A DNA stretch of 64,000 bases from Desulfuromonas sp. AOP6 (lineage in GTDB: Bacteria > Desulfobacterota > Desulfuromonadia > Desulfuromonadales > SZUA-540): contig NZ_AP022810.1 in the NCBI RefSeq assembly GCF_009731355.2, positions 1,764,001 through 1,828,000 of the forward strand, given 5' to 3'. Made by a program: the position numbers and the translations under genes. The notes under the pieces are model-generated. The model worked only from the letters and a program-made list of their open reading frames with translations, was not told the origin of the DNA and did not search any database. Each line of letters begins with the position of its first letter. Positions within the stretch are counted from its first letter, which is position 1. Shown one piece after another: positions 28,795-47,759 of the stretch.

Positions 28795-29832
28795 ATGGGT
28801 CACGGTATCAACCACACAAGGATCACATCAACGGCACCTACGCTGTGCCTCCTTGTGGGAATGGTTGCCATGGCTTTTTTACTCTCCCCAGCTGGTGCCT
28901 TCGGCGAGACCAAGGCCACCTACATGTATAAACTCTCCGACTTCAGTGGCGAGGTTCCTTCCCTGCTGGCTAGAGTAGCGGTCAATTCCGAACTAGGCGA
29001 GGTCTACGCGCTCAATCGCGGAGATGCGATCATTCAAATCTACAACCAGGAGGCCATGCAGATCTTCGGCTTCGGTGAAGAGCTGGGGCTGTCTTCCGCC
29101 CTCGATATCGCCTCGGGTCAGAACGGCGACATTTACGTGCTTCATACAAACCGCGTTCTGCACCTCGACTATAAGGGCACACCTTTAAAGGAAATCGTCC
29201 CCAGCGACCTGCCTGAAGCGGTTCGGGGCTTCCGCGCTGAATTCATGGCCCTGCAGCAGGACAAGCTTTTTCTGGCTGACGGTGAAGCCATGAAGGTGCT
29301 CGTTCTCTCCCTCGATGGAAAATATTTGAATCACTACGACCTGCGCGCTGTCCTCGAAGAGCAAATCAGGGCTGGACTGCATCAAAAAGATCTACGCCCT
29401 TCACAGGAGCGCAAGCTGCAGGACGACCTGAAAGCATTAAGCAGTGCTGAAATGAACGGCTTCGCGGTGGGGAGCAATGAGGAGATCTATTTCACCGCCG
29501 CTACTCTCTTCTCAGCCTTTCGCTACAGTGCGGATGGCCAACTGGATCAGTTCGGCGTGGCCGGCGGGGCCGTGGGCAAATTCGGGGTTGTCTCGGGTAT
29601 CGAGACGGACCCTTCCGGAAACATTTACGTATCGGACCGCCTGCGCTGCGTGGTGCTGGTCTTCGATAAGGACTTTCAGTTTTTGACCGAGTTCGGATAT
29701 CGCGGGGCCGCACCGCAGAACCTCATCGTTCCTGACGATATCGCGATCAACAGCCAAAACGGCACGGTGTATGTGTCTCAGGCAGCCAACCTCGGAGTCA
29801 GTGTCTACAAGGTTCACTTTGACACGAACTGA
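28795..29832 (+). CDS. Secreted NHL-repeat beta-propeller protein
   Basis: A 345-residue exported protein with signal peptide (LCLLVGMVAMAFLLSPAGAFG), then NHL-type blades (ALDIASGQNGDIYVLHTNRVLHLD, GIETDPSGNIYVSDRLRCVVLVFD, DIAINSQNGTVYVSQAANLGVSVY) predicted to form one beta-propeller. GAGG lies 5 bases upstream of the ATG. It is the first gene behind the sigma-54-type promoter and is separated from the first OmcS homologue by the riboswitch leader. An NHL protein also adjoins omcS in Geobacter as I recall, so a role in filament export or cell attachment is plausible but unproven. Confidence 0.85.
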   Translation: MGHGINHTRITSTAPTLCLLVGMVAMAFLLSPAGAFGETKATYMYKLSDFSGEVPSLLARVAVNSELGEVYALNRGDAIIQIYNQEAMQIFGFGEELGLSSALDIASGQNGDIYVLHTNRVLHLDYKGTPLKEIVPSDLPEAVRGFRAEFMALQQDKLFLADGEAMKVLVLSLDGKYLNHYDLRAVLEEQIRAGLHQKDLRPSQERKLQDDLKALSSAEMNGFAVGSNEEIYFTAATLFSAFRYSADGQLDQFGVAGGAVGKFGVVSGIETDPSGNIYVSDRLRCVVLVFDKDFQFLTEFGYRGAAPQNLIVPDDIAINSQNGTVYVSQAANLGVSVYKVHFDTN

Positions 29833-29920
29833 CGGTTCTGGTTGCCACCCATTTCGGGGTCCTGCCACGACCCCTTGCCGAAAGGAGGTGAAGACTAAAA
29901 GGTAATACCCGCAACACCAC

Positions 29921-29946
29921 GGATACCCGCCAGGGGGCGGTTATCC
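29921..29946 (+). repeat. Hairpin in the omcS leader, upstream of the aptamer
   Basis: GGATACCCGCC (29921-29931) pairs with GGCGGTTATCC (29936-29946) with one mismatch and a 4-base loop. It is too close to the riboswitch to be unrelated and may insulate or help fold the leader. There is no T run. Confidence 0.5.
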
Positions 29947-29949
29947 ACT

Positions 29950-30040
29950 ATCCTCCGAAAAAGGTAAACCCATCGCGAGGTGGGGACACAAAGTCACAGA
30001 TCCACTTCGGGTGAAGGGGATGGCTGGGCTGTTCGGACCA
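29950..30040 (+). promoter_or_regulatory. GEMM-I family riboswitch (variant core) controlling the OmcS homologue
   Basis: Cyclic dinucleotide aptamer of the GEMM-I fold. P1 is TCCGAA (29954-29959) with TTCGGA (30032-30037). GGTAAACC (29963-29970) runs into P2, CCCATC/GGTGGG, capped by a GCGA GNRA tetraloop (29975-29978). GACACAAAGTC (29985-29995) and P3 (ATCC...CTTC/GAAG...GGAT, 30000-30021) follow. Relative to the common core it has C to T in GGYAAACC and two changes in GACGCAAAGCC. Ligand (c-di-GMP or 3',3'-cGAMP) cannot be fixed by eye. The segment ATCCTCC (29950-29956) is complementary to the ribosome site GGAGGAT (30057-30063), suggesting translational control. No terminator follows. Confidence 0.85.
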
Positions 30041-30068
30041 AATCAAAAGATTTTCAGGAGGATCAAAA

Positions 30069-31247
30069 ATGAAGAAGTTATTTGTTATTTGCACTGCCAT
30101 TCTGTTTACATTTGCTTTCAGCGGGTTGGCTCTGGCCTTCCATGACGGCGGCGTCGCCCACTGCGACGGCTGTCACTCCATGCACGGCGGCGCCAGCAAC
30201 GGACCGGCCCTGCAAAAAGGCTCCGATGCCAGCTCCACCTGCCTCAACTGCCACAATGGCGCCGGTCTCTACAAAATAAGCAGCGCCGACGGCAGCAACA
30301 CCAACGAGGGCGGCGACTTCCACTGGGTCAAGGACAATGGTTATACCTATATTGTCCGTAAAAATCCCGTAACCTTTGATTTCAACAACGCCGGCCACAA
30401 CACCATCGCCGCCGACTACGGCATCGCCGCTGACGCCAATCTGACTGCGGCTCCCGGTGGTTCCTATCTGGCCGCCAACCTCACCTGCACCAGCTGTCAT
30501 GACCCCCATGGTCAGGCCCAGGGTGGCACCATCGGCGGCGCCGCGCCCATCTCCGTTTCCGGTTCCTATGGTGACGTACCTCCGGCAGGTACCATCGCCG
30601 GCAACTACCGCATCCTCTATGACAGCAACAAGGTCGGCTTCTCCGAAGACGCGCCTATCGCTCGCGCCAACAGCTATGACGGCAAATCCACCCAGTACGG
30701 CAGCGGCATGTCCGGCTGGTGCGCCAATTGCCACGGCGCCTTCTACAGCCAATCGGCTTCTAGTGGCATGCACCCGACCGACGTCGCCGTACCGACCGTC
30801 TACAACAGTTATGTCGCTACCGGGAACTACACCGGCACCGTCGCCAATGCCTACGATCCCCTGGTGCCATTCGAGCGCGGCGTGACCACTTCTTCTGCTG
30901 ACCTGCCCGATCCGACTGATGCCCTTACGGCTGGTGTTGGTGTCGATGGCAGTTCCCAGGTCATGTGTCTCTCCTGCCACCGCGCCCATGCCTCGGCCTT
31001 CTCCAACGCCTTGCGCTGGGACATGACCGAAGCCTTCATCGCTGAAAGCTGGACTATTCTGGATGGCGCAGATGCTTCCGGCACCCCCAATGCCGCTGCG
31101 CTTCTGCCTACTGCAGCAGCCAAACCATACTACAAGCATGGTGTCGATTTGGATGTGGCGGTATTTGATCCAGCCGGCACTCCTTTCACCAACGGTTACG
31201 GTCACTATCAGCGTTCCCTGTGCAACAAGTGTCACGTACAGGATTAA
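30069..31247 (+). CDS. omcS: Hexaheme c-type cytochrome, OmcS-type nanowire subunit
   Basis: Secreted 392-residue cytochrome. The signal peptide ends ALA before FHDGGVAHCDGCHSMH. Six CXXCH motifs lie at about residues 32, 58, 140, 218, 300 and 385. The spacing and surrounding motifs (GHNTIAADYG, TAAPGGSYLAANLTCTSCHDPHG, SGWCANCH, VPFERG, CLSCHRAHAS and a C-terminal LCNKCH) match Geobacter OmcS, whose subunits polymerise into micrometre-long heme-stacked extracellular filaments. An AGGAGG ribosome site lies 7 bases before the ATG, behind a GEMM riboswitch. A strong terminator follows. Assignment rests on remembered motif order, not on an alignment, so omcS is by similarity. Confidence 0.9.
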   Translation: MKKLFVICTAILFTFAFSGLALAFHDGGVAHCDGCHSMHGGASNGPALQKGSDASSTCLNCHNGAGLYKISSADGSNTNEGGDFHWVKDNGYTYIVRKNPVTFDFNNAGHNTIAADYGIAADANLTAAPGGSYLAANLTCTSCHDPHGQAQGGTIGGAAPISVSGSYGDVPPAGTIAGNYRILYDSNKVGFSEDAPIARANSYDGKSTQYGSGMSGWCANCHGAFYSQSASSGMHPTDVAVPTVYNSYVATGNYTGTVANAYDPLVPFERGVTTSSADLPDPTDALTAGVGVDGSSQVMCLSCHRAHASAFSNALRWDMTEAFIAESWTILDGADASGTPNAAALLPTAAAKPYYKHGVDLDVAVFDPAGTPFTNGYGHYQRSLCNKCHVQD

Positions 31248-31294
31248 AAACCGGCATACCATGGCATAACCTGGTTTCTCTGTAATACTTATAA

Positions 31295-31329
31295 GGGCTG
31301 GCGGTTTTCGGGTCGCCAGCCCTCTTTTT
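31295..31329 (+). terminator. Intrinsic terminator between the two OmcS paralogues
   Basis: GGGCTGGCG (31295-31303) and CGCCAGCCC (31314-31322) form a 9-bp GC-rich stem followed by a T run. It lies 47 bases past the first cytochrome's stop and would make that transcript much more abundant than the downstream genes. Confidence 0.85.
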
Positions 31330-31399
31330 CGATGCACAATCCCTGCTCCATGAACAGCGACTTCTTCATCTGACAGCTGTGCTTCTCTCGGTGGGTACC

Positions 31400-32569
31400 A
31401 TGTCCCAGCCCATACTGACATCTCTGGCCGCCATGATCACCCTGCTCCTCGCTGCTTTTCCGGTTGAGGCGACCGCCGCCTTTCATACAGGTGGTGCCGG
31501 TTCGTGCAACGGCTGCCACAGCATGCACCACTCGGAAAATGGCATGTCGCTGACGCCCGGCTCCTGGCTGCTGCGCGCTTCCGATGCCAGTTCCCTCTGC
31601 CTGAACTGCCATGCCGGCGCCGGGGGCCCCACCTCCACTTCTGTCTACAGCTTCGACGGCAGCGCCCTCACGCCCGGTGGCGATTTTTACTGGGTCACCA
31701 AAAGTTTCAATTGGTCGGGCGGCACCAGCCCCGCCGCCCGTCACGGTCACAACATCGTGGCCAATGACTTCGGCCTGACGGCCGACCCCAACAAGGTCAA
31801 TGCGCCCGGAGGAAGCTACCCCGCCGCGGCGCTGACCTGCATCAGCTGCCATGATCCCCATGGCGGCGGCCTGCGCACCAGCACCGGCCCCATTGCCGTC
31901 TCCGGTTCCTACGGGGAGACGCCGGCGGCCGGCACCCGTGCCGGCACCTACCGCCTGCTTGGCGGCTCCGACTATGTCATCAACGGCTATGCCTACACAT
32001 ATGATGCTCCGGTGGCCCGACAAAACCCCTTGCGTCCCTTCGCCGAGTCAGACGCTTCCCATGTCGACTACGGTGCGGGGATGAGCGAGTGGTGCGCCAA
32101 CTGTCACGGCTCCATGGTGTCCAACGCCCATCAGGTTGGCAGTGGCACCTTCGCTCATCCGATCGGGCAGGATGCCCGCCTGGAAGCGGATATCGCGGCC
32201 AACTATAACAGTTATATCCGTACCGGCGACCTCAGCGGCACGGCGGCCACGGCCTACCTGCAGTTCGTCCCCTTCGAAAGAGGGACCACCAACGCGGCCC
32301 TGCTTGACCCGACCGGCACCCAGGGGCCCGACGCCACCTCCAACGTCATGTGCCTGACCTGCCACCGCGCCCACGCTTCGGCTTTCATGTATGCAGGCCG
32401 CTGGGATTTTACCACCGAACTGCTGGCCAACTCACACCCGGCCATCGGCGACAGCGGCGCCACCGCCAGCGATGTCAGCAACAGCTATTACGGTCGGGAT
32501 ATCGCGCTCGAATTCGGCAGCGCCCAGGGATCGTTCTGCCAGAAATGTCACCCGCAGGGAACTCCTTAA
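31400..32569 (+). CDS. Second hexaheme cytochrome, OmcS/OmcT-like paralogue
   Basis: A 389-residue secreted cytochrome with a signal peptide before AFHTGGAGSCNGCHSMH and six CXXCH motifs (CNGCH, CLNCH, CISCH, CANCH, CLTCH, CQKCH) in the same order as the upstream protein. Shared blocks include GGDFYWVTKSF, GHNIVANDFG, APGGSYPAAALTC, GAGMSEWCANCH, YNSYIRTGDLSGTAATAYLQFVPFERGT and CHRAHASAF, which are if anything closer to Geobacter OmcS/OmcT than the first copy. ATG 31400 is preferred to a TTG at 31379, with GGTGGG upstream. A lipoprotein gene follows 35 bases later, so it heads the long downstream operon beyond the terminator. Confidence 0.9.
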   Translation: MSQPILTSLAAMITLLLAAFPVEATAAFHTGGAGSCNGCHSMHHSENGMSLTPGSWLLRASDASSLCLNCHAGAGGPTSTSVYSFDGSALTPGGDFYWVTKSFNWSGGTSPAARHGHNIVANDFGLTADPNKVNAPGGSYPAAALTCISCHDPHGGGLRTSTGPIAVSGSYGETPAAGTRAGTYRLLGGSDYVINGYAYTYDAPVARQNPLRPFAESDASHVDYGAGMSEWCANCHGSMVSNAHQVGSGTFAHPIGQDARLEADIAANYNSYIRTGDLSGTAATAYLQFVPFERGTTNAALLDPTGTQGPDATSNVMCLTCHRAHASAFMYAGRWDFTTELLANSHPAIGDSGATASDVSNSYYGRDIALEFGSAQGSFCQKCHPQGTP

Positions 32570-32604
32570 ACAAACGGGCCCTGGCATGGTTTTCCCGCGA
32601 AAAC

Positions 32605-34023
32605 ATGGAGCTTGGCTTGAAAAGATGCCTTTTTCTTAAAGTGATACTGATGTCCTTCCTGGTGGCGGCCTGCAGCCTGCCGGCGGCGGTACCCGTTATT
32701 CCGGTCAGCGAACCGAGCCATGGTCTGCGGTTGTATCTGCAAACATTGCCGCAGGAGGCTCAGAATCTGACTTTAACACTGGCTGATTTCAAGGCCATCG
32801 GCATCGACGGCAGCAATATCCATCTTGACACCCCCCCTATTTTTCTGCAGGGCCATGAGTTGCTTGCTTTGCAGAAACGCCTGCTGAGCGCGGCCCTGCC
32901 GCCCGGCGAATACCGGGGGTTGAGTCTGCGCGTCACCGCCGCCGACCTGCACACGGATGAAGGAATCACCTCGTTACTGGTACCCGACGAACCTGTTGTC
33001 CTTCAGCAAGACTTTCGTATCTCTCAGGAGAAAACCCTGGCCCTCTTTCTGACCCTTGAACCCCAGCGCCTGATTACCGACGGCTACCGGCTGACACCGA
33101 CCTTTAGTCTATGGCTGCCAAAGCCGGCGCTCCCGGAACTGAAAGGCTTCGTCAGCAACAGCGCCGCTGGTACCCTGAGCGTTTTTGAAAAGAGAACCCC
33201 CCAGGTGGTTTCTGTCCTTTCGGTGGGCCGCCAGCCTCAGGGACTGGTGCTCGATGCAGAACAGCGCCGGGCCTACGTGGCCCTGGCGGGGGATGACAGC
33301 ATTGCCGCCATCGATGTGACCAACGAAAAGATCCAGGACAAACTGCGCCTGCGCCCGGGAGACGCCCCCAGCGAGCTGGCGCTGTCGCCTGACGGTCACA
33401 CTCTGGTGGCCGTCAACGAGGAAACCTCCAGCCTGAGCATCCTCAACGCCGATCCCCTCTATGAGCAAGGCCGCCTGTTGTTGTCCTCATCGCCCAGGTC
33501 CGTTTTTTTCGCTACATCCAACGCCATTACTTACCTGCTGCAGCCTGAAATCAACGCCCTCGCCATGGTGGATCTAAAGCGGCAGGAGATCATCGCCTCG
33601 GTGAACCTGGAATTTTCACCAATCCGCGGCGCCGCCAGTCCCGATGGCCGCACCCTTTACCTGCTCACGGCCGATTCGCCCAATCTGCTGGTAGTCGACT
33701 CCTCGTCACTGGCCCTGCGCGATCGCATCCTGGTAGGCTATGGGGCCCGCTCCCTGGCTGTCAATCCCCATAACGGTATGGTCTACGTGGGGATGAAGTC
33801 CGGAGAAGTGGCCTTTGTCGATGCAGAGGTCAGTCTGCCCATCGACTCGCTGCGTTCCGATGGTGATGCCGCTTGGCTCAGCGTCGATACGGAAGAAAAC
33901 GCTCTCTTTGTGGTCTCGGGTCGTGATGGCCGTCTGGGCAAATACGACCTGATCAGCAAAAAACGTCTTGGCTTGATCGAAACAGATGGCGGCAGTTATG
34001 CCGCCGTTCTCATGGGTGACTAG
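32605..34023 (+). CDS. Beta-propeller lipoprotein (YVTN/YncE-like) of the cytochrome locus
   Basis: A 472-residue lipoprotein with lipobox LVAAC. The N-terminal ~150 residues (GLRLYLQTLPQEAQNLTLTL, LLSAALPPGEYRGLSLRVTA) resemble a DUF4382-like beta-sandwich. The rest contains YVTN/YncE-type blades (RRAYVALAGDDSIAAIDVTN, SELALSPDGHTLVAVNEET, GMVYVGMKSGEVAFVD) forming a seven-bladed propeller. I place the start at ATG 32605, which gives a proper signal. Longer readings overlap the cytochrome gene. It sits between the second hexaheme cytochrome and the outer-membrane barrel gene (8 bases apart), so a surface-exposed accessory role is likely but unproven. Confidence 0.85.
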   Translation: MELGLKRCLFLKVILMSFLVAACSLPAAVPVIPVSEPSHGLRLYLQTLPQEAQNLTLTLADFKAIGIDGSNIHLDTPPIFLQGHELLALQKRLLSAALPPGEYRGLSLRVTAADLHTDEGITSLLVPDEPVVLQQDFRISQEKTLALFLTLEPQRLITDGYRLTPTFSLWLPKPALPELKGFVSNSAAGTLSVFEKRTPQVVSVLSVGRQPQGLVLDAEQRRAYVALAGDDSIAAIDVTNEKIQDKLRLRPGDAPSELALSPDGHTLVAVNEETSSLSILNADPLYEQGRLLLSSSPRSVFFATSNAITYLLQPEINALAMVDLKRQEIIASVNLEFSPIRGAASPDGRTLYLLTADSPNLLVVDSSSLALRDRILVGYGARSLAVNPHNGMVYVGMKSGEVAFVDAEVSLPIDSLRSDGDAAWLSVDTEENALFVVSGRDGRLGKYDLISKKRLGLIETDGGSYAAVLMGD

Positions 34024-34031: not shown

Positions 34032-36173
34032 ATGTCCAGAATCGCTATCCTCATCTTCCTCAACCTGATTCTGCTGGCCTGGTTCTCAATACCCTCATCC
34101 AGCCTCGCCGGCAATCTGCGTCTGCTCGGCGACTGGACCTACTCCAACACCAGCTCCGAAACGAAAGATCGCCTGACACAGGAGCGCACCGACTCGGAAT
34201 CCAGACGTCTCAGTCAGATTTACCGTCTGGATCTCACCCAGGAGCTCGGCCCCACCCTCTTTCTGACCGGTGGCGCCCAACTGGAAGACAACGACCAGCG
34301 CAACGAATCCGACTCGGGAGATACCCGCACAGAAGGAAGCACTGTCCGCCCTTATGTCAACCTGCAATGGTTGACACCCTTGTACACCTTGTCGGGCGGC
34401 TATGAGGAACGGGAGGCCAAAACGAAAACAACGGGCAATGCCACACAACGAGACTTCTCGGAAACGACCACTGGCCGTTTTTATTGGCGCCCCGTCGATC
34501 TGCCGACCCTCGAACTCGACTACGCCCGCACCCTCCGCCATGATGAACCGCTGACTCATGACAATGAAAGCCAGGTTTATCGACTGAGCAGCAAATACAC
34601 CTGGGAGGATCTCGAATTTCTTTACAGCTATCTGCGCAGTGACGAACAGGAAAAAATAGCCGACACTGAAGCCTTGACACAAACCCATAATGGCCGGGTG
34701 CGCTATGCCAGCACCTTTTTGGACAATCGCCTGTCTGTCAGCGCCGGGGCCCGCATGGAACGATCCATGGTGGAGTTCAGCGGAGCAACACAGCCCAGAA
34801 TCAGAACCTTCCCCATTGGCGCCGGCTTTTTTCTGCTCAATGACTCTGACCCCACCAGCACCAACCTGGCCCTGACGCCCTACACCCCGACCAGCGAAGA
34901 ACCTTTCACCACCATCAATCTCGGTTCAACAGGACCATCGACCCCGATCAGCCTGGGGCTGGATTTTGGCGAAAACATTCAAGTCGATGTCCTGGAGGTA
35001 CTCCTGCAGGCCAACGAATCAACCTTGGATCAGCTGACGTCCACCTCCTTTGACTTCCGCGTCTTTATCAGCAATGACCAGGAAAACTGGACGGAGATCG
35101 GCGCCACGCACCTGTGGGACCCACTTAACAACCTGTACAGCATCGACCTCGCCAGCCAGGTCAATGCCGAGTTCATCAAAGTGACGACCTTTGCCCTTCC
35201 CGTCTCCTCGGGAATCACAGATGAGATTGTGGTTTTGGATATGCGCGCCTTCGTCATTCCTCCTGCCGATATCACCGAGATCATCTCGACCTATCAGAGC
35301 CTCAACGCCGGTCTCTCCTGGAAAGCGACCGACAAGACCCAGGTGCTCTTCGACAGCAGCTACCAGTACCGTGAAACCGATCTCTTTGACGACGCAAGGG
35401 CTCGTCTGAGCAACAGTCTCAGCCTGATCCACCGTTTCAATCCGATCTTTTCCGGCACAACCCGCCTGCTGCGCAGCGATGCCTGGGAACAGTGGAAGCA
35501 TGATACCGCCACCACCAGCTACAGCGCCCAGCTGTCGGGGCGCTATCTGCCGACCCTGAACCAGAGCCTGACTTACAGTGGAATGCGCACGGAGGAACCG
35601 GAAGGGAAAAGCGTCAACAACGCCATCATCCTGCGCACCAACGCCGCTATGTATACCGGTTGGGACCTCTCCTTCGACCAGGGCTACAACTGGCAGGATC
35701 CCGTCACCGGCAAGGACAGCTCCAGCTTTTTTGTGCGTCTGCAGAACAGCCTCATCCCCCACCCGCGCTTAACCCTCATCGCCGATTACTCCATCCGCTG
35801 GCAGCAGAAGGAGGACGAGCCGACAGAAAGGGGTGAAACTGGTCGGGTGCGGGCAACCTGGAGCCCCACGGACAATCTCAGCTTCAACGGCGAGGTGCGG
35901 CAGCGGCGCAGTGAAGGCGATCTCTACACGTACTGGGAATACGGAGTCGGCTGGCTCCCCTTGCGCGACGGTACCCTGCAGTTCAACCTGAGCTATTACG
36001 AGGATGGCGATACGGACGACGACAGGCGCCGCAGCTTTTCGCCGAGCCTCACCTGGAGCGTGACGGATTCGGCCACGCTGAGGGTGCTGTATAATATCGG
36101 CCGCCAGGAAGTCCGCGAGGAAATGACGGATTACCAGTCCGTCATGGTGAATTTTCGCATCTACACCAATTGA
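34032..36173 (+). CDS. Outer-membrane beta-barrel protein with a discoidin-like insert
   Basis: A 713-residue exported protein whose signal peptide ends SSSLAG. The N-terminal (about 30-260) and C-terminal (about 415-713) parts are rich in alternating hydrophobic strands with the aromatic girdles of a large porin-like barrel (for example RFYWRPVDLPTLELDYARTL and GVGWLPLRDGTLQFNLSYYE), ending MVNFRIYTN. Between them, about residues 295-410, lies a soluble beta-sandwich (ISLGLDFGENIQVDVLEVLL, FRVFISNDQENWTEIGA, VNAEFIKVTT) resembling F5/8 type C (discoidin) domains. Size and context recall the barrels of porin-cytochrome conduits, but the fold is inferred. Confidence 0.82.
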   Translation: MSRIAILIFLNLILLAWFSIPSSSLAGNLRLLGDWTYSNTSSETKDRLTQERTDSESRRLSQIYRLDLTQELGPTLFLTGGAQLEDNDQRNESDSGDTRTEGSTVRPYVNLQWLTPLYTLSGGYEEREAKTKTTGNATQRDFSETTTGRFYWRPVDLPTLELDYARTLRHDEPLTHDNESQVYRLSSKYTWEDLEFLYSYLRSDEQEKIADTEALTQTHNGRVRYASTFLDNRLSVSAGARMERSMVEFSGATQPRIRTFPIGAGFFLLNDSDPTSTNLALTPYTPTSEEPFTTINLGSTGPSTPISLGLDFGENIQVDVLEVLLQANESTLDQLTSTSFDFRVFISNDQENWTEIGATHLWDPLNNLYSIDLASQVNAEFIKVTTFALPVSSGITDEIVVLDMRAFVIPPADITEIISTYQSLNAGLSWKATDKTQVLFDSSYQYRETDLFDDARARLSNSLSLIHRFNPIFSGTTRLLRSDAWEQWKHDTATTSYSAQLSGRYLPTLNQSLTYSGMRTEEPEGKSVNNAIILRTNAAMYTGWDLSFDQGYNWQDPVTGKDSSSFFVRLQNSLIPHPRLTLIADYSIRWQQKEDEPTERGETGRVRATWSPTDNLSFNGEVRQRRSEGDLYTYWEYGVGWLPLRDGTLQFNLSYYEDGDTDDDRRRSFSPSLTWSVTDSATLRVLYNIGRQEVREEMTDYQSVMVNFRIYTN

Positions 36174-36247: not shown

Positions 36248-36823
36248 ATGAAACTCTCCACACTGTCCAGAATCTTCCCCCTATTGCTGCTGGCGCTTTC
36301 TCTGGCTGCCTGCGCCTCTTCGGAGGCGACCTACAAAAACGCCACCATGAACTTTGGCGCGGTCCAAAGTGTCGCCGTGCTCCCCTTTGAAAATCTGACG
36401 ACGGACGACGACGCTTCGGCCCGGGTGCGCGACACCTTTATGGGCATGCTGCTGGCGACGGAAGCCATGTACGTGCAGCCCCCCGGCGAGGTGCAGCGAG
36501 GGATCGACCGCGCCGGTATTCCACAGCCGACCCAACCACCGGCGGACAAGATCCAATCCATCGGTAAAATCCTCGGCGTCGACGCCGTCATTACCGGCGT
36601 GCTGCGGGAATACGGCCAGGTTCGCTCCGGCCAGACCCAGGCCAACATCATCTCGCTGAGTCTGCAGATGATGGAGGTCGAAACAGGCACGGTCGTCTGG
36701 TCCGGCGCTGCCACCAAGGGCGGCATTACCCTCTCCGACCGCCTCTTCGGCGGCGCCGGCGATCCCATGAACGAAGTGACTAAAGAGGCAGTCAATGATC
36801 TGCTCGATCAGCTCTTCCAATAA
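36248..36823 (+). CDS. GNA1162/DUF799-like lipoprotein (CsgG-related)
   Basis: A 191-residue lipoprotein with lipobox LAACAS. VQSVAVLPFENLTTDDDASARVRD followed by KILGVDAVITGVLREYGQ and ETGTVVWSGAATKGG matches the DUF799/GNA1162 fold, which is related to the curli secretion channel CsgG and to TolB-N/FlgT-like assembly proteins. ATG 36248 is chosen because AGAGGA precedes it. Upstream ATGs lack a ribosome site. Its end overlaps the start of the next gene by 29 bases, and that gene carries the same domain at its C-terminus, implying a physical partnership in the outer membrane (inference). Confidence 0.88.
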   Translation: MKLSTLSRIFPLLLLALSLAACASSEATYKNATMNFGAVQSVAVLPFENLTTDDDASARVRDTFMGMLLATEAMYVQPPGEVQRGIDRAGIPQPTQPPADKIQSIGKILGVDAVITGVLREYGQVRSGQTQANIISLSLQMMEVETGTVVWSGAATKGGITLSDRLFGGAGDPMNEVTKEAVNDLLDQLFQ

Positions 36824-40278: not shown

Positions 40279-42321
40279 ATGAAAAAAATGTTCCGTCTCA
40301 TCTCTCTCGCCCTTGCCCTCAGTTTCGCTCCCCTTACCTCCGCCTTCGCGTTCGGTGATGCCCAGCATGCCGAAGAGCACAAAGCCAACCAGGTAACACT
40401 GGACGATAACGCCACCCTCAGCCTGCAGGTGCCGATTTTTTCACCGAACTTTGCCGGTACCCCCGTCGCCTTCGTCAATGAGCATCCCATCCTGCTGGGC
40501 CAGTTGACACCTGCCCTGACGCCGGTTCACGAGGAAATGCCCCTGCCGACCGAAGGAGCGGCCAAGGCCCTGACCAACACCTTCAACCGCGAACTCGACA
40601 AGGTGATCAGCGAACGCTCGCAGGGCAAAACCGATGTGCGTGTGGAGCGCATGACGACTGCGGGTATCGATAAGGACAGAAACCTGCTGGTGAATGTCCC
40701 CCTCTCCTCGCTCTGGTACGGTGAGACTCCCGTGGCCGAGGTCGACCAGGACCCCATCGTCATGGCCGAGTTTTCGCGGGACTTAAAGGCTTCTTATGGT
40801 GATATGACCGAAGAAAATCACCATGCCACCCTCACTGAAAATGCCAGACACCTGTTGGACCGCCTCATCGCGGTGCGCCTGGTCGAACTCGAAGCCCGCA
40901 ATATTGGCCTGGATCAGACCGCCAATGTACGCAAGCAGGTTGACGCCTTTGCTGAAAAGACCCTGCTGTACGCTCTGCTCAATGCGCAACTGAAAGGCCT
41001 GACCTTAAACGAGGCAGAAGCAGACAAACTTTACCGGGATATTTCACTGGAAGGGAAATTTGAAAGTTACCGCTTCTCCAAACAAGAGGATGCCGTCGCG
41101 CTCCTCAAGGCTCTGGAAGAGAAGAAATCCTTCGACGCCCTGATCAAGGAAGCCATCGCCCAGGGCAAGGCCATCAAGGAAACCGATGCGGAATATACCT
41201 CTTTCAAAGATTTGCTCCCCCAGATCGCCACCGATGCCAAGGACATGAAGGCGGGGGATGTCAGCAAAATTTACACGAAGGCGGACGGCTTCCTCATCTT
41301 CCGCCTGGTCGACAAACGTTTCCATGAAGACCCTGCCGCCCTGCAGTTCGCCCGCAAAAACGTCTGGGATACCCAGGTTGCCAGCCAGGGGGAGAAGTAC
41401 ATTTCCAAGCTGATCGACGAAAAAGCCGTATTCAACAAAGAGGCGAAAGCCGCTATCGACTTCGCCAAGATCAAGGAAAAGAACCCGGAGATCAAACTCG
41501 GGGAAGCCCTGGCCCCCCTGCTGACGGACAACCGCGTGCTCGCCACGATCAAGGGGGCTGAGCCCGAAACCCTCACCGTGGCTCAGTTCGCCGGCAGACT
41601 GAACGGTACCTTCTATCATGGTACGGACATCGCCCTGGACGCCAAGGAGGTGGACGCCAAGAAAGAACAGATTCTCACCGATATCCTCTTCCGCCGGGCC
41701 GGCACTCTGGTCGCCAAAAATCTCGGCCTTGACAAGGAGCAGGATTACCGCCTGGAGGTGGAGGAATTCGAGCGCCGGACCCTGTTCGACAACTTTGTGC
41801 AGAAGGCCGTCGTGCCCGATGTGACCATCAGCGAAGAAGAAATTCGCCAGTATTACGACGACAATGTCCAGAAATATTCCACTCCGACCATGCTGCGGGT
41901 CAAGTCCCTCCCCTTCTACCGTGAGAACGACGCCCGCGAAGCCTTGAAAAAGCTGCAGGGTGGGAGCGATTTCAAATGGGTGGCCGCCAACTCGTCCGGG
42001 CTGGTGCCTGTGGAAAACAAGGATCTGCTCACTTTCGGCAACAGCATTCTGAGTCTGACGTCCCTGCCTGCCAATCTTCAGAAAGAGGGCGGTTCCTATC
42101 GCACCGGTGACGCCATTGTATTCAGTGACCCCGATAAATTTTTCTACGTCCTCTATTTTGAAAAGGTCTATCCGCCTGAACCGAAGCCATACGACCAGGT
42201 TCGAGAGGAGATCAGGCAGATCATTTTCCAGAACAAGGTCGAGGAAACCCTGGAGATGTGGATCGGCAAACTCAGAGAGGCCTACGATACCCGCATCTAT
42301 CTGAGCGGGCAGGCTTCGTGA
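40279..42321 (+). CDS. Periplasmic SurA/PpiD-like peptidyl-prolyl isomerase chaperone
   Basis: A 680-residue exported protein with signal peptide ending SAFAFG. It has helical chaperone segments (ARHLLDRLIAVRLVELEARNIGLD, YALLNAQLKG) typical of SurA/PrsA. One parvulin-like region lies around residues 240-355 (YRFSKQEDAVALLKAL...ADGFLIFRLVDKR) and a second near 550-650 (LRVKSLPFYRENDAREALKKLQGG...FFYVLYFEKVYPPEPKPYDQVREE). Several canonical parvulin active-site residues are not obvious, so it may be mainly a chaperone. GAGG precedes the ATG. Its position between the Ig/CsgG-like protein and the 26-heme cytochrome fits folding of exported cytochromes or barrels. Confidence 0.88.
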   Translation: MKKMFRLISLALALSFAPLTSAFAFGDAQHAEEHKANQVTLDDNATLSLQVPIFSPNFAGTPVAFVNEHPILLGQLTPALTPVHEEMPLPTEGAAKALTNTFNRELDKVISERSQGKTDVRVERMTTAGIDKDRNLLVNVPLSSLWYGETPVAEVDQDPIVMAEFSRDLKASYGDMTEENHHATLTENARHLLDRLIAVRLVELEARNIGLDQTANVRKQVDAFAEKTLLYALLNAQLKGLTLNEAEADKLYRDISLEGKFESYRFSKQEDAVALLKALEEKKSFDALIKEAIAQGKAIKETDAEYTSFKDLLPQIATDAKDMKAGDVSKIYTKADGFLIFRLVDKRFHEDPAALQFARKNVWDTQVASQGEKYISKLIDEKAVFNKEAKAAIDFAKIKEKNPEIKLGEALAPLLTDNRVLATIKGAEPETLTVAQFAGRLNGTFYHGTDIALDAKEVDAKKEQILTDILFRRAGTLVAKNLGLDKEQDYRLEVEEFERRTLFDNFVQKAVVPDVTISEEEIRQYYDDNVQKYSTPTMLRVKSLPFYRENDAREALKKLQGGSDFKWVAANSSGLVPVENKDLLTFGNSILSLTSLPANLQKEGGSYRTGDAIVFSDPDKFFYVLYFEKVYPPEPKPYDQVREEIRQIIFQNKVEETLEMWIGKLREAYDTRIYLSGQAS

Positions 42322-42392: not shown

Positions 42393-44372
42393 ATGAGCTT
42401 ATCGTCAGGAAAAAACAGGGTATGGGTGGCAGTCCTGTCTGCGGTGGTCATCGCCCTCTCTACGGGAATCACCGTCGGAGAGGCCGAGGCGGCCAAGCGT
42501 TCCTTCAGCCGCCAGGGCTGCATCGACTGTCACAAGGACTTTGACAAAGACTTTTTGTCCAAGAAGCATGTTCATCCGGTGGTCAAGCAGCAGAAATGCG
42601 AGGAATGCCACTTGCCGCACGGCATCATTCCCAAGCTGCTGCTGAAGGAATCGGGGAACAAGGTCTGCTTCCCCTGCCATAGCCAGGAAGATCTGGGTCT
42701 GGACAAGAAGGGCGTCCACAGCGCCGTGCGCAAGGGGCAATGCACGACCTGTCACAATCCTCATGCCTCGGACAACCCCTTCATGATGAACGCCAGCGGC
42801 AGCGATATCTGCTTCCAGTGCCACGATCGGAAGCCCTTCTCCCGCAAGGAGGTACACGGCGTCATCAAGGACCAGGGATGCCGCGCCTGTCACATGGCTC
42901 ACGGTTCCCCCGAGCCGAACCTGCTGACGGAGAATCCCCTGAAGCTCTGTCTTTCCTGTCACGACCCGGGGGACAAAGCTTTCCGCCAGGCCCATGGCGA
43001 TTATCCGGTGGAACAGCAGTCGTGCACGCTCTGCCACGATCCCCATTCAAGTGACTTGGGCAGCCTTCTCAAGGGGAGTGTCCACTCGCCGGTAGCCGAA
43101 GCCAGCTGTGACGCCTGCCACAACAGCGCCACTTCGGCGGAACCCTTCGGCCTGACCCAGACCGGCAGTGAGCTCTGCCAGAACTGCCATGACCAGGAAG
43201 AGCTCAAGGGCGGCGGCACGGTGCTGCATTCACCCTTTGAGGGGGGCGAATGTCTCTCCTGCCACGCCCCGCATACCTCGGATAACGCCGTGCTGCTTAC
43301 GGCCCCGGGCAACCAGCTGTGCTTCGACTGCCATGCCGAGAAAAACGCCAAGTTCACCAGCCCACACGCCCCGGTCGATTCGGAAACAGGTTGTCTGTCC
43401 TGTCATTCACCCCATGCCGGTCTGCACGACGGTCTCCTCGCTCTGCCGGACGGCAAGCAGTGCCTTGAGTGCCACGCCGACGTCAAGACCGCGATTGCCA
43501 AGCTGGCGAAACCCCACCAGCCGGCCACCGAAGAAATGTGCAGTACCTGCCATAATCCCCACGGCTCCAACGCCCCCGACATGCTCACCCAGCGGGCGGA
43601 CGCCCTGTGCTACCAGTGCCATGCCGAGCTGGAGGGATCATTCCTGCAGACGGTCATCCATCAGCCGGTCAAATCAGGGAGCTGCACCATCTGCCACAAC
43701 GGCCACGGCGGCGCGGATGCACGCTTTCTGCGGGCCCAGGGTGCCGATCTCTGCGTGACATGCCACGAGACCCTGATGGACAATCCGAACAGAGAACTGG
43801 AGCACTCCCCCTTCAAGGACAGGGATTGTCTCATCTGCCACGATCCCCATGCCAGCCCCTACGGCGGCATGCTCGCCGACGCACAGAAAACAGTGTGTGC
43901 GGCCTGTCACGGTGATCTGAACGAAGCCTTGTCCTCGGCGACGAGCCAGCACGCTCCGGTTACCAACGGCGAATGCAGCCAGTGCCACAGCCCCCACCGA
44001 ACGGCGCTGCCTGGGCTGCTGCTCACCACCGGCATCGACCTCTGTCTCTCCTGTCATACGACCCTGAAGGACAAGATGGCCAACGAACGGACGCATTCGC
44101 CGGTCGCCCAGGACTGTCTGCAATGCCACAAACCGCACCTGTCGAAGCAGGTTCGCCTGCTGACGGCGCCGCAGCACAGCCTGTGCGCCGAGTGCCATGA
44201 GACGGATGTCGACTCCTTCAGCAAGGCGCATGCGGGCATCGCCACCGAGGTCATGGACTGCGTCACCTGTCACAACCCGCACGCCTCCAAAGATCCGCAA
44301 TACTTCAAGGATGTCATGCATGCGCCCTTTGCGGCACGATCCTGTGAACCCTGCCACCTTGTCGAGCAGTGA
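42393..44372 (+). CDS. 26-heme c-type cytochrome (doubled-CXXCH type)
   Basis: Secreted 659-residue cytochrome. I count 26 CXXCH motifs from CIDCH near residue 43 to CEPCH near the C-terminus, about one heme per 24 residues. They are arranged as doubled CXXCH units with CHxPH spacers (CHNPHAS, CHDPHSS). The signal peptide ends EAEAAKRS. There is no lipobox or transmembrane anchor beyond the signal. ATG 42393 is chosen for GAGG 7 bases upstream. The immediately preceding GTG overlaps the chaperone stop but has no ribosome site. The long heme chain suggests a periplasm-spanning electron wire feeding the extracellular cytochromes (inference). Confidence 0.92.
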   Translation: MSLSSGKNRVWVAVLSAVVIALSTGITVGEAEAAKRSFSRQGCIDCHKDFDKDFLSKKHVHPVVKQQKCEECHLPHGIIPKLLLKESGNKVCFPCHSQEDLGLDKKGVHSAVRKGQCTTCHNPHASDNPFMMNASGSDICFQCHDRKPFSRKEVHGVIKDQGCRACHMAHGSPEPNLLTENPLKLCLSCHDPGDKAFRQAHGDYPVEQQSCTLCHDPHSSDLGSLLKGSVHSPVAEASCDACHNSATSAEPFGLTQTGSELCQNCHDQEELKGGGTVLHSPFEGGECLSCHAPHTSDNAVLLTAPGNQLCFDCHAEKNAKFTSPHAPVDSETGCLSCHSPHAGLHDGLLALPDGKQCLECHADVKTAIAKLAKPHQPATEEMCSTCHNPHGSNAPDMLTQRADALCYQCHAELEGSFLQTVIHQPVKSGSCTICHNGHGGADARFLRAQGADLCVTCHETLMDNPNRELEHSPFKDRDCLICHDPHASPYGGMLADAQKTVCAACHGDLNEALSSATSQHAPVTNGECSQCHSPHRTALPGLLLTTGIDLCLSCHTTLKDKMANERTHSPVAQDCLQCHKPHLSKQVRLLTAPQHSLCAECHETDVDSFSKAHAGIATEVMDCVTCHNPHASKDPQYFKDVMHAPFAARSCEPCHLVEQ

Positions 44373-44382
44373 GGGGGACGAT

Positions 44383-45657
44383 ATGAACCTGAAAACGAAC
44401 CTGATACTGATTCTTTTCGCACTCCTTGTCCTGATGGCGCAGACCGCGCTGGGTGCCAGCGACGCCCAACTCAAGCTGGCCAAGGGAGCCCGGGGCGATC
44501 TCTGCCTGAGCTGCCATGAGGCCTTCAAGGATAAACTGAAAAAACCCCATATCCACACTCCTCTGAAAAAGGGAGAGTGCACAGGCTGTCACAACCCGCA
44601 TGCCGCCGATCACGGTAAACTGATGGCGGCGGCACCCAATCAAATCTGCAGCAAATGTCACGAGGGCCTGATTCCGGATGGGTCAAAGAGCATCCATCAG
44701 GTCGTGGTCGAGGGCCAGTGTGCTCTCTGCCATGATCCCCATGCGGCTGACAACCGCAACAATCTTATTCGCGGCGGCAGCGCCCTCTGTTTCGACTGCC
44801 ACGCCGACCTCGGCAAAGCCATTTCCCAGAACAAGGTAAAACACGTTCCCGTGGAAAAGGACTGCCTCACCTGCCACAACCCCCATGCCTCGGGGGCTGG
44901 CCCTGCCCTGCTGAAGGAAAAAGCGCCGAAGCTCTGCCTGAAGTGCCATGACCCCAACAAGGGCACCTTCAAGAGCCAGCATCTCAACTATCCGGTGCAG
45001 GAGGCCAACTGTTCCTCCTGCCACAATCCTCACGGTTCAAACAGCCAGTCCATTCTCTACGACAACGTGCACGAGCCCCTGAAGAAGAGGATGTGCAAGC
45101 AGTGCCACGAAGATCCCTCCTCGGCGACCCCCTTCGCTACCCTGAAACCGGGATATGAGCTCTGCCAGGGCTGCCACTACGAGATGCTCAACGACACCTT
45201 CAACAAAGACCGTCTGCACTGGCCCCTGGCCGACAAAAAAGGCTGCATCAACTGTCATGCCCCCCACGCCTCTTCGGAAGCCAATCTGATGGCCGGCCCC
45301 ATGCTCAACGTGTGCGGCAGCTGCCATGCAGACACTATTGCCCGCCAGGAGCGCAGCCAGACCAAGCATCAGCCCATCGCCGACGGTGAGTGCAGCTCCT
45401 GCCATTCGGTGCACAGCTCCAACAACCGCTTCATTCTCACCGAGCCCAAGACCGTCGACCTGTGCGGCCAATGCCACGACTGGCAGACCCACTCCACGCA
45501 CCCCATCGGCAGCGAAGTGGTCGATCCGCGCAACCGGAACCTGACCCTGGACTGCCTGAGCTGCCACCGCACGCACGGGACCCAGTACAAGCACTTCATC
45601 TACTACGAAACCATCAACGACCTGTGCATTCAGTGTCACACCAAGTATCGGAGGTAA
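44383..45657 (+). CDS. 16-heme c-type cytochrome (doubled-CXXCH type)
   Basis: A 424-residue exported cytochrome with signal peptide (LILILFALLVLMAQTALGAS) and 16 CXXCH motifs, in the same doubled-motif style as the upstream 26-heme protein (CTGCHNPHAADHG, CALCHDPHAADN, CLTCHNPHAS). The two are probably ancient duplicates. GAGGGGG precedes the ATG by 7 bases, and the gap to the upstream stop is 10 bases, so they are translated from one message. It ends CIQCHTKYRR. Probably periplasmic, relaying electrons to the outer-membrane or extracellular partners. Confidence 0.92.
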   Translation: MNLKTNLILILFALLVLMAQTALGASDAQLKLAKGARGDLCLSCHEAFKDKLKKPHIHTPLKKGECTGCHNPHAADHGKLMAAAPNQICSKCHEGLIPDGSKSIHQVVVEGQCALCHDPHAADNRNNLIRGGSALCFDCHADLGKAISQNKVKHVPVEKDCLTCHNPHASGAGPALLKEKAPKLCLKCHDPNKGTFKSQHLNYPVQEANCSSCHNPHGSNSQSILYDNVHEPLKKRMCKQCHEDPSSATPFATLKPGYELCQGCHYEMLNDTFNKDRLHWPLADKKGCINCHAPHASSEANLMAGPMLNVCGSCHADTIARQERSQTKHQPIADGECSSCHSVHSSNNRFILTEPKTVDLCGQCHDWQTHSTHPIGSEVVDPRNRNLTLDCLSCHRTHGTQYKHFIYYETINDLCIQCHTKYRR

Positions 45658-45659
45658 TC

Positions 45660-46556
45660 ATGAAACCAGCGAGGATCGTCATTCTGACTCTGATGCTGTT
45701 TCTGCTTCCCCTGGTCGCTTCGGCGGCCAGCACGGTGAAACTCAAATATATTCAGACCCTCTATACCGACGCTGAAGGCAAACCCATGAACGGTCCCTCC
45801 TCTGTAGCCGTAAAGGAGGACGCTATCGTGGTGGCGGACAGCGACAATCGGCGCCTTTTGCGTTTCACCCTCAAGGACGGGGTTGTCACCCCCGGTGCCA
45901 CTATTTCGGTCGACCGTATGTATCCGGTCAAAGTGCAGATCGGCAGCAACGGTGAATTGTTCGTTCTCGACGGCAAAGACCGCCGCATCGTCCGCCTTGG
46001 TGCCGACGGCGCCTTAAAAGGGAATCTGGACATCAAGGGACTGGCTTCCGGCAAGGTGGTGCCGCGCAGCCTGCGCATCACCCAGGACGGCAGGATAGTC
46101 ATCCTGGATATCTTTTCCGAGCGAGTGCTGTGGCTCGACAGTGCCGGCACGGTGCAGGAACAGATCCCCTTTCCCGAGGACTATGGCTTCATCTCCGACC
46201 TCAGCGTTGACCGGCAAGGCAATGTCTTTTTGATCGACAGCGTCACCGCCGTGGTCTACCTGGCTAAAAAGGGGGAGGACTCTTTTGTCCCCCTGACCGG
46301 CAGCCTGAAGGAACACATGAATTTCCCCAGCACCCTGGAAGCCGACAACCAGGGGCATGTTTATCTCGTTGATCAGTATGGCAGCGGCCTGGCCGTTATC
46401 GGCATGGACGGTTCCTTTCTCGGGCGCAAATTGGGGATGGGCTGGAACGACAGTCAACTCTTTTACCCCGAGGGGATCAGCATCAGCGATACGGGCGATG
46501 TCTTTATCGCCGATCGGGAAAACAACCGGGTCCAGCAGTTTCTGGTGGTGGAGTAA
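45660..46556 (+). CDS. Second secreted NHL-repeat protein
   Basis: A 298-residue exported beta-propeller protein whose signal peptide ends VASAAS. NHL blades include GPSSVAVKEDAIVVADSDNRRLLRF, KVQIGSNGELFVLDGKDRRIVRL, LSVDRQGNVFLIDSVTAVVY and GISISDTGDVFIADRENNRVQQF. It starts 2 bases after the 16-heme stop with GGAGG overlapping that stop, a tight coupling. Together with the NHL protein at the beginning of the locus it brackets the cytochrome genes. NHL propellers are protein-binding platforms, but the partner is unknown. Confidence 0.9.
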   Translation: MKPARIVILTLMLFLLPLVASAASTVKLKYIQTLYTDAEGKPMNGPSSVAVKEDAIVVADSDNRRLLRFTLKDGVVTPGATISVDRMYPVKVQIGSNGELFVLDGKDRRIVRLGADGALKGNLDIKGLASGKVVPRSLRITQDGRIVILDIFSERVLWLDSAGTVQEQIPFPEDYGFISDLSVDRQGNVFLIDSVTAVVYLAKKGEDSFVPLTGSLKEHMNFPSTLEADNQGHVYLVDQYGSGLAVIGMDGSFLGRKLGMGWNDSQLFYPEGISISDTGDVFIADRENNRVQQFLVVE

Positions 46557-46610
46557 AAAATTCAAGGGGGACTTTATCCGCCCGCAAGCTGCCGCAGAGA
46601 GTTGCCTTTT

Positions 46611-47147
46611 ATGAAATTGCTTTTACCAGCATTGCTGCTGCTCACCGGGATTCTCTTCGGAGCCTTTTCGGCTTCGACCTGGGTGCTGCCCGAGGAAAAA
46701 AGTGAAGACGATCAGTGCATAAGGTGCCACGTCGACACTTTCAACCAGGGGCTGACCCAAAAATTCACGCATCCGCCTTTTTTTGAAAAACAATGCCGCC
46801 GTTGCCATCTGGCCGGCGGCTCGGAGCCGCAGGACCGGGATAAAGGGGAAATGGGTACTCACCCGCGCCTGAGAGAACCACAGGAGCTCACCATTGAGCT
46901 CTGTCTGAGCTGCCACTCGAACACGAACCTTGGCACCTCGCATCCCGTGCGTCTCTATGCACGCCGGGGCAACACCATTATTCCCGATGAACTGCCGACC
47001 ATCGAGGACGGCATGATGACCTGCGTGACCTGCCACAGCCCACACGGTGCTCCCGCCAGCCAGCTGGTCAGGGAAATTGTCAAAACCAAACTCTGCGTGA
47101 CCTGCCATATCCGCTTCAAAAACTCATCCCCGGCGACCATGTTTTGA
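46611..47147 (+). CDS. Small pentaheme c-type cytochrome with N-terminal anchor
   Basis: A 178-residue protein with one N-terminal hydrophobic segment (LLLPALLLLTGILFGAFSAS) that may remain as a membrane anchor. It has five CXXCH motifs (CIRCH, CRRCH, CLSCH, CVTCH, CVTCH). Upstream ATG or TTG choices differ by three codons, and ATG 46611 is used. Small anchored multiheme proteins of this kind typically pass electrons from the quinone pool or inner membrane to periplasmic cytochromes. That role would complete the chain in this locus, but it is inferred from architecture only. Confidence 0.88.
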   Translation: MKLLLPALLLLTGILFGAFSASTWVLPEEKSEDDQCIRCHVDTFNQGLTQKFTHPPFFEKQCRRCHLAGGSEPQDRDKGEMGTHPRLREPQELTIELCLSCHSNTNLGTSHPVRLYARRGNTIIPDELPTIEDGMMTCVTCHSPHGAPASQLVREIVKTKLCVTCHIRFKNSSPATMF

Positions 47148-47168
47148 GGACTTGATTTGAGGAGAGCC

Positions 47169-47759
47169 ATGAATCCCGACACTTCACTGAAAAAACGTAA
47201 GCTTCTCAACCTGAGTATCCACAGCGCTATGCAATGGCGCATGATCGCCCGCATCAGCAGCATCCTTTTCATCTGCCTGCTGCTGAGCAGCGCCGTCTAT
47301 TACCATTTCGCCAATGTGGAGATCACCTCGTCGTTCAAAATGTTCCATATTAAGGCGCGCAGCTTTCTCGACCTCCTTTTGCCCTTGGTGGTCTATTCCT
47401 TCGTTTTCAGTCTTGTGGTGGGGATTATCGCCAGCCTCTTTTTTCCGAAAAACTATGCCGGCAGTGTCTACCGCATTGAACAGGATCTGAAACAGATTCG
47501 GGATGGAGATCTGCGCAAACGGATTACCTTACGCAAAGGGGATGAGGTTACGGAGTTGGCAGACCAGGTCAACGCCCTGGTTCAGCAATTTCACGACCAG
47601 GTGCTCAGCATCCGTTCGACCCTGGAACATCTGCCCCTCCAGGAGAGCGGCGGCCCGGATGATTCACTGGAAAGGCATCTGGAGCGCATGAAAAAGTGCC
47701 GCCGAGAGGTTCTGGCCGAACTGGCCATCTACCATGTTCATGAGCACCACTCCACCTGA
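47169..47759 (+). CDS. HAMP-domain inner-membrane protein without output domain
   Basis: A 196-residue protein with two transmembrane helices (ISSILFICLLLSSAVYYHF and LLLPLVVYSFVFSLVVGIIASLFF) separated by a very short periplasmic loop. A HAMP domain follows (YRIEQDLKQIRDGDLRKRI, GDEVTELADQVNALVQQF) and then a short helical tail ending HVHEHHST. There is no kinase, cyclase or methyl-accepting domain. ATG 47169 with AGGAG upstream is preferred to a TTG at 47157. It is the last gene of the cytochrome unit, 21 bases after the pentaheme gene. It may be a redox or membrane-state sensing accessory whose output partner is separate. Confidence 0.82.
   Translation: MNPDTSLKKRKLLNLSIHSAMQWRMIARISSILFICLLLSSAVYYHFANVEITSSFKMFHIKARSFLDLLLPLVVYSFVFSLVVGIIASLFFPKNYAGSVYRIEQDLKQIRDGDLRKRITLRKGDEVTELADQVNALVQQFHDQVLSIRSTLEHLPLQESGGPDDSLERHLERMKKCRREVLAELAIYHVHEHHST

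Follow-up and report, generated by a model that had tools for sequence, protein, structure and literature searches.

A probable osc cluster with two OmcS-family hexaheme cytochromes in Desulfuromonas sp. AOP6

We analyzed a stretch of 64,000 nucleotides from the genome of Desulfuromonas sp. AOP6 (3.27 Mb in one contig, NZ_AP022810.1; positions 1,764,001 to 1,828,000, hereafter the window), in which thirteen consecutive genes on the + strand occupy positions 28795-47759. With a probability of roughly 0.8, this locus makes OmcS-type hexaheme cytochromes and also encodes the machinery for folding them and exporting them as filaments. It is very probably an osc (omcS-companion) cluster, i.e. a divergent copy of a published system, with two hexaheme genes. 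This interpretation rests on homology, gene order, conserved ligands, predicted folds and the positions of a riboswitch and a hairpin. An OmcS-type nanowire locus with its own export and assembly genes had already been proposed for this DNA (the initial annotation); conserved histidines and conserved neighbours support the proposal, while its novelty was lost, the block having been published before.

In Geobacter sulfurreducens, the eight-gene block GSU2500-GSU2493, which follows the hexaheme gene GSU2501, is linked in passages of PMC12977616 to maturation and secretion of OmcS nanowires, and blocks of this type are counted there in 12 of 33 genomes. A passage of PMC13194489 citing Shen et al. 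2025 speaks of the osc operon, names oscC, oscI and oscJ, proposes OscH for folding, and suggests OscE, OscF and OscG for secretion and OscD for morphology. The locus is thus of a described kind, parts of which appear in passages of PMC5539420 (2017) and PMC10553843 (2023). Such gene sets presumably serve soil and sediment bacteria in making and exporting cytochrome filaments that conduct electricity. What the window adds is a leaning of OscF and OscG towards GNA1162/PelC, a hairpin pattern, a GEMM-I riboswitch, the non-orthology of its hexahemes to OmcS and a second system in the same genome.

Hexahemes and their conserved neighbours

When 177635 PDB sequences were searched with phmmer, OmcS was the sole match at E 0.001 for either hexaheme (E 6.9e-49 and 170 bits for hexaheme 1, E 7.1e-70 and 239 bits for hexaheme 2). 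The similarity on which both had been called OmcS-type is thus far above chance. The alignment with OmcS, proposed earlier as a check, agrees in heme order and in 12 conserved histidine positions: like OmcS (PDB 6ef8, 6nef), both proteins have six CXXCH histidines, plus histidines at OmcS positions 2, 16, 110, 147, 257 and 335. The mature proteins are 369 and 362 amino acids (aa) long against 407 aa in OmcS, and are 38% and 40% identical to it. Of the "same heme spacing" noted initially, only the order of hemes held, as the residue spacing is just roughly alike (38-93-99-89-72 in OmcS, 26-82-78-82-85 in hexaheme 1, 31-80-85-86-62 in hexaheme 2).

According to passages of Filman et al. (PMC6584659), all 12 axial ligands of OmcS are histidines, and the ligand of heme 505 comes from the neighbouring molecule. 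From this all-histidine ligation and from their conservation, we infer that the 12 histidines are axial ligands in the window proteins as well. His16 of mature OmcS, which we take to be the histidine bridging to the neighbour subunit, is present in both hexahemes.

Among relatives, His16 was the only one of these positions to vary. Of the 99 sequences aligned, OmcS among them, the full set of 12 histidines is kept in 74, and His16 alone is missing from 24, of which 23 lie outside the window's order; one further His16-less row is cut at the N-terminus, and the other 11 positions are never lost. Four rows were omitted from this alignment, namely an overlap duplicate, an identical copy and two 7-heme proteins with a different N-terminus. 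His16 is kept in 58 of 58 copies located 5' of the block and absent in 21 of 30 copies 3' of it (e.g. in loci L137:714-2024, L138:3488-6410, L140:17574-18911 and L142:2221-3444); six unplaced His16-less matches include the two 7-heme proteins. On a quick tree of these sequences, the pattern needs three changes. The window holds no His16-less copy, and a search of the whole genome at E 0.001 returned hexahemes 1 and 2 and two distant hexahemes only. The recurrent, exact loss of His16 in relatives would agree with the hexahemes being surface or soluble monomeric cytochromes that do not polymerise. However, both window proteins retain the complete set of histidines, and we regard this alternative as improbable here. 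Whether a single histidine decides polymerisation is a question raised by its loss in some relatives.

The one-to-one identity with OmcS implied initially had to be corrected, as both hexahemes fall into groups of their own order outside the OmcS group in two trees; in this they also differ from the G. sulfurreducens osc hexahemes, being outside both the OmcS and the OscC clades. In one tree, hexaheme 2 belongs to an eight-row group and OmcS to a separate one of 30 rows (100/100 each), and the group of hexaheme 1 contains two relatives (100/99; six in the quick tree, 100). The quick tree joins both window hexaheme types at 99, whereas the other tree, midpoint-rooted next to the system II rows (see below), places hexaheme 2 with the OmcS side (92/92). 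The two trees thus disagree on when the pair duplicated; a duplication of the two hexahemes independent of that of OmcS/OscC was considered and withdrawn on this account.

Conservation of the neighbours across relatives, the other check proposed, was likewise observed. Of 50 loci, 37 (the window and 36 others, all from genomes other than that of G. sulfurreducens) have the whole eight-gene block in the order D-E-F-G-H-I-J-K. As for the 13 remaining loci, seven had been retrieved because of isolated hexahemes, four (L139, L143, L144, L183) are truncated, L186 has a complete block with an extra NHL match, and L053 is without K and has D-E apart from the rest. OscH-type isomerase matches of at least 400 residues were found in 9 of 57 other relatives searched, and the block was present at all nine loci (D being cut by a contig end in L040); weaker OscH matches include system II isomerases (e.g. 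in genome G042) and probably ordinary isomerases too. No OscH relative was found among viral contigs in a close search. Among 277 genomes of the class, 51, counting that of the window, encode OmcS-family hexahemes; osc homologues occur in Geomonas, Geomobilimonas, Anaeromyxobacter, Desulfuromusa, Desulfobulbaceae, Schekmanbacteria (with the block split) and Nitrospira. L054, L056 and L058 repeat L177, L042 and L191 and were left out of the block, hairpin and placement counts; families f23-f25 comprise genomes of the same class but of another order than the window, and rows from related genomes are not independent.

The window thus resembles the G. sulfurreducens osc region (omcS GSU2504 to GSU2493) in having hexahemes directly 5' of an eight-gene block with a 26-heme cytochrome, and in both blocks proteins proposed for folding, secretion and morphology are encoded: in the window, a prolyl isomerase (OscH), a propeller (OscD) and channel-like OscE, OscF and OscG. 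By order, the four candidates singled out initially (genes starting at 34032, 36248, 36795 and 40279) correspond to OscE, OscF, OscG and OscH. The genes and elements of the cluster, all on the + strand, are as follows.

28795..29832 (+): NHL/6-bladed propeller, 345 aa (Pfam NHL 6.7e-7); a homologue lies 5' of the hexaheme in many osc loci
29953..30036 (+): GEMM-I cyclic-dinucleotide riboswitch (RF01051; 51.5 bits, E 3.7e-7), 5' of hexaheme 1
30069..31247 (+): hexaheme 1, OmcS family (6ef8), proposed bulk subunit, with a hairpin 3'
31294..31323 (+): terminator-like hairpin with T tract between the hexahemes (13 pairs, 8 of them G-C)
31379..32569 (+): hexaheme 2, OmcS family (6ef8), beside oscD, i.e. 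in the OscC position; its start may be 31400, and no hairpin lies 3' of it
32605..34023 (+): OscD-type beta-propeller, probable lipoprotein (VAAC, by eye); YVTN/Cytochrom_D1/YNCE-like matches, conserved order
34032..36173 (+): OscE-type outer-membrane beta-barrel with a galactose-binding-like insert, as predicted from a structural model and its matches
36248..36823 (+): OscF-type lipoprotein, GNA1162/PelC-like (Pfam GNA1162-like 3.9e-8; LAAC lipobox by eye)
36795..40205 (+): OscG-type protein with about eight Ig-like repeats (Pfam Ig-like matches; period 95 aa), then two PelC/TolB-N-like domains from about 39162
40279..42321 (+): OscH-type periplasmic parvulin (PPIC) prolyl isomerase (Pfam Rotamase_2 1.2e-19); the N-domain is weakly SurA-like (SurA_N_3 2.3e-4, below the Pfam cut-off)
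42393..44372 (+): 26-heme cytochrome, OscI type (26 CXXCH); a homologue 44-57% identical has the same position in loci outside the genus
44383..45657 (+): 16-heme cytochrome, OscJ type (16 CXXCH), conserved order
45660..46556 (+): NHL propeller, last gene of the eight-gene block (Pfam NHL 5.5e-22), conserved order
46611..47147 (+): 5-heme cytochrome, accessory (5 CXXCH), present in some relatives only
47169..47759 (+): membrane protein with a HAMP domain (Pfam HAMP 5.8e-6), paired with the 5-heme gene

Gene order, shared strand and the heme counts of 6, 6, 26, 16 and 5 (CXXCH motifs in the translations) are as first annotated, and Pfam and NCBIfam back the labels of the NHL propellers, the YVTN/Cytochrom_D1-like propeller, the GNA1162-like lipoprotein, the Ig-like repeats and the PPIC isomerase. 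The gaps, calculated from refined gene starts picked from signal peptides by eye, are 236, 131, 35, 8, 74, -29, 73, 71, 10, 2, 54 and 21 bases. Their description as mostly tiny suits most genes but not the two hexahemes, which are preceded by 236 and 131 bases holding the riboswitch and the hairpin, respectively.

Folds of the candidate export proteins

The AlphaFold2 model of OscE (predicted local distance difference test score, pLDDT, 83.1; predicted TM-score, pTM, 0.63) has about 11 long strands, an insert at residues ~257-408 and then 17 long strands. Its structural matches (Foldseek, VIA-align) are outer-membrane barrels. Among them, MtrB (Z 17.8) is aligned over 428 residues, the widest coverage in the match list, and with OccK-type porins a Z of up to 19.6 was obtained (293 residues). 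Matches to porins and TonB receptors would indicate a barrel only, with low Foldseek TM-scores (at most 0.37). The insert is galactose-binding-like and weakly matches carbohydrate-binding modules (E 0.0055).

The OscF profile matches GNA1162 (2.8e-6) and PelC (1.5e-5) but not CsgG. The core of OscG was modelled as two tandem domains (pLDDT 79.1, pTM 0.83), the second of which resembles OscF (hhalign E 9.2e-16). The first gives Z 14.4 (134 residues, 2.5 A) and 13.3 with PelC, 12.8 with GNA1162, 12.5 with CsgG and 12.4 with TolB, FlgT also being close; in Foldseek, GNA1162 comes first (4.6e-7), followed by PelC (~1e-5) and CsgG (2.2e-3). No Pfam CsgG match was obtained for OscF (E 0.01) or the OscG core (E 0.1). 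On these predicted folds, both appear somewhat nearer to GNA1162/PelC than to CsgG, although the structural margin is modest. The earlier term "CsgG-like" is loose, holding for the broad alpha/beta fold class. A literal CsgG export pore was set aside, given the lack of a Pfam match and the barrel encoded by a separate gene. The domains of OscF and OscG measure about 155-165 aa, in which CsgG-type membrane hairpins would find little room.

As in the PelBC exporter, PelC-like domains are encoded beside a separate barrel, and fold together with gene order would place a PelC-like ring beneath OscE. Unlike in PelBC, which exports an exopolysaccharide, the cargo would be a cytochrome, and OscG has tandem domains and Ig-like repeats; OscE is likened to PelB by arrangement only. 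In curli, CsgG shares the broad fold class with OscF and OscG, whereas the osc barrel is a protein of its own. OscG (36795-40205) varies from 364 to 1442 aa among relatives (orthologues in L035-L043), apparently because the Ig-like repeats differ in number while the core behind them stays constant; the window protein has 1136 aa, compared with 372-433 aa in L137-L138 and L140-L143.

The match to MtrB, the barrel of the Mtr conduit, also suits another role, in which the block would primarily be an outer-membrane electron conduit ("Oet"), OscE housing or docking the 16- and 26-heme cytochromes while another route takes the hexahemes to the surface. A passage of PMC10553843 proposes such a porin-cytochrome conduit, OetA-OetI-OetB, beside OmcX and OmcS-like genes, and 42 hemes are encoded near the barrel in the window. 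However, the isomerase and the PelC-like proteins suit export better, and no lipobox was seen by eye in the 26- and 16-heme proteins of the window; OetB, by contrast, is reported to be a lipoprotein at the surface. We consider a primary conduit rather unlikely; one machine might serve both tasks.

Regulatory elements and a working model

GEMM-I riboswitches were also found 5' of the hexaheme 1 position in L035 and L036, and preceding OmcS orthologues in L137 and L139 (two of seven loci in each case). The omcST riboswitch of G. sulfurreducens is reported, in a passage of PMC6456294, to sense cyclic GMP-AMP (cGAMP) and cyclic di-GMP (c-di-GMP).

Hairpins were counted when a stem of at least 8 pairs with at most -18 kcal/mol lay within 130 bases after a stop codon. 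By this rule, they follow 23 of 24 oscD-distal hexahemes (21 loci) and none of the 21 oscD-adjacent ones. They also follow 15 of 17 single hexahemes, and 11 of 308 ends of D-K genes (six of these being K), against 1 in 1150 mononucleotide shuffles. L040 and L053, which are without full-length D, were left out of this count; L138 and L139, from one genome, were assigned by hand. The two hairpin-free "single" hexahemes (L051, L199) are each preceded by another, partial hexaheme at a contig end and are probably oscD-adjacent copies, which would give 0/23 and 15/15. Folding of the entire inter-hexaheme stretch gave z -0.9 for the window; the values for five relatives were -1.9 to -6.7. This pattern suggests that oscD-distal hexahemes are bulk subunits and oscD-adjacent ones assembly-linked subunits. 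As some hairpins are without a good T tract, they could act as terminators, processing sites or stabilisers. A sigma-70 scan returned 6 sites against 5.9 in shuffles, i.e. no excess.

According to our working model, both hexahemes would be secreted to the periplasm and then given heme, and the parvulin OscH would hold them from early folding or polymerising, as proposed in G. sulfurreducens. OscF and OscG, with their predicted folds, would assemble into a PelC-like lipoprotein ring or funnel beneath OscE, and this barrel may let subunits or the growing filament out. The filament would grow by one histidine per subunit ligating the heme of its neighbour, as is known for OmcS. Expression would be two-tiered: framed by the riboswitch and the hairpin, hexaheme 1 would be made in large amounts as the bulk subunit, while less of the hexaheme 2-oscD-K transcript would supply the assembly genes and a minor, perhaps basal, subunit.

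The roles of the two hexahemes might be reversed, with hexaheme 2 building the filament and hexaheme 1 serving as an accessory cytochrome. The higher score of hexaheme 2 against OmcS agrees with this, as do the single hexahemes of L042 and L043, which best match hexaheme 2, although the same is true of nearly all hexahemes of other orders. On the other hand, it is hexaheme 1 that has its own riboswitch and hairpin and stands in the place taken by OmcS in the L137 and L139 loci, and hexaheme 2 occupies the OscC position; a reversal seems unlikely to us.

Several observations weigh against the export model and the assignment of subunits within it. Hexaheme 2, not hexaheme 1, is the closer to OmcS, which counts against hexaheme 1 as the bulk subunit, and judging from the trees neither is a one-to-one OmcS orthologue. 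L037, L038, L039, L041 and L043 have no riboswitch at gathering score. The T tract is weak after several hairpins (e.g. in L039, L187 and L191), and terminator-like sites across the region (25) are not clearly above shuffles (19.9, standard deviation 4.4). The PelC likeness is one of fold only (Z 14.4 vs 12.5 for CsgG). Related blocks are read as an electron conduit in PMC10553843, at least in its relevant passages, and in those of the citing papers PMC13194489 and PMC12977616 the osc roles are worded as proposals. The hidden Markov models (HMMs) of PMC12977616 are stated there to work probably only within the genus, resolution for authentic OmcS lacking beyond it; because of this limit, a residue-level marker would be useful.

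A passage of a 2025 review (PMC12307469) still describes the exit of cytochrome filaments from the cell as incompletely understood. The locus sharpens the questions of whether a PelC-like ring and a barrel form that exit and which of two hexahemes builds the wire; its value lies in a sharper set of tests rather than in a new system.

A second, Oet-like system and accessory genes

The two distant hexahemes belong to a second locus at about 1205678-1226220 of the genome (L048, L049), which we will call system II. It comprises 12-heme genes, a barrel, an isomerase, 26- and 16-heme cytochromes, propellers and hexahemes, together with two CsgG/GNA1162-class lipoproteins, of which F2 alone matches Pfam CsgG (3.5e-9), and a protein with PelC/CsgG-class and Ig-like parts. 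Apart from small variations and contig ends, its gene order is kept in 13 fetched loci. System II isomerase matches were found in 30 of 277 genomes of the class (weakly in G160) and, with G160 excluded, together with an OmcS-family hexaheme in seven genomes. Profile comparison by hhalign relates system II to osc through the barrel (E 1.9e-58), the isomerase (1e-32), OscG (4.1e-17) and the hexaheme (1.3e-31). Searched as single sequences, the system II hexahemes gave no credible PDB match, but their profile matches OmcS (1.9e-18). Their third heme motif is CX5CH in 12 of 14 aligned relatives. No riboswitch reached gathering score in seven system II loci, a search from which L049, the upstream half of the copy in this genome, was left out.

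We initially held the second system to be unknown and dropped this view, as passages of PMC5539420 and PMC10553843 describe such operons. The former (2017) describes a core of isomerase, 26-heme and 16-heme cytochromes and propeller as well as an organism with two copies; the latter interprets related operons as an Oet conduit accompanied by OmcX, OmcS-like proteins and further filament candidates. Like the window, Oet-type operons combine a core of isomerase, 26-heme, 16-heme and six-bladed propeller genes with a barrel and nearby hexahemes. The components of the conduit (barrel, 26- and 16-heme cytochromes, propeller, isomerase) occur in both the window and system II, the likeness to OetI being one by description. 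System II is set apart from the window by its 12-heme genes, its divergent hexahemes and, by eye, a fibronectin-like stretch in a 5-heme gene and a lipobox in the 26-heme protein. System II fits the published Oet description; Osc and Oet therefore appear to be paralogous versions of one machine.

Only tentatively, and with the odds leaning against it, do we extend this to two editions of a machine (barrel, PelC-like ring, parvulin, 26- and 16-heme cytochromes, propellers), each serving its own OmcS-fold filament. Subunits would then be sorted by gene architecture into a hairpin-framed bulk subunit (with a riboswitch in some lineages) and an assembly-linked subunit by oscD, and the 3' His16-less copies found elsewhere could start or end a filament, not extend it both ways.

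The 5-heme and HAMP genes are an addition with respect to the G. sulfurreducens osc cluster. In four of nine loci (L035, L038, L039 with the 5-heme gene as a fragment, and L041), the pair adjoins the NHL gene, and a similar pair occurs in the system II loci L203, L210, L211 and L212. Close to the upstream end of the cluster, window positions 24962-28450 hold a TonB gene and, on the - strand, a gene resembling TonB-dependent receptors. Downstream, an Ig/fibronectin-type gene (48339-50585) is preceded at 48109-48264 by another GEMM riboswitch (c-di-GMP-I-GGC, 75.1 bits), which is accompanied by a terminator-like hairpin.

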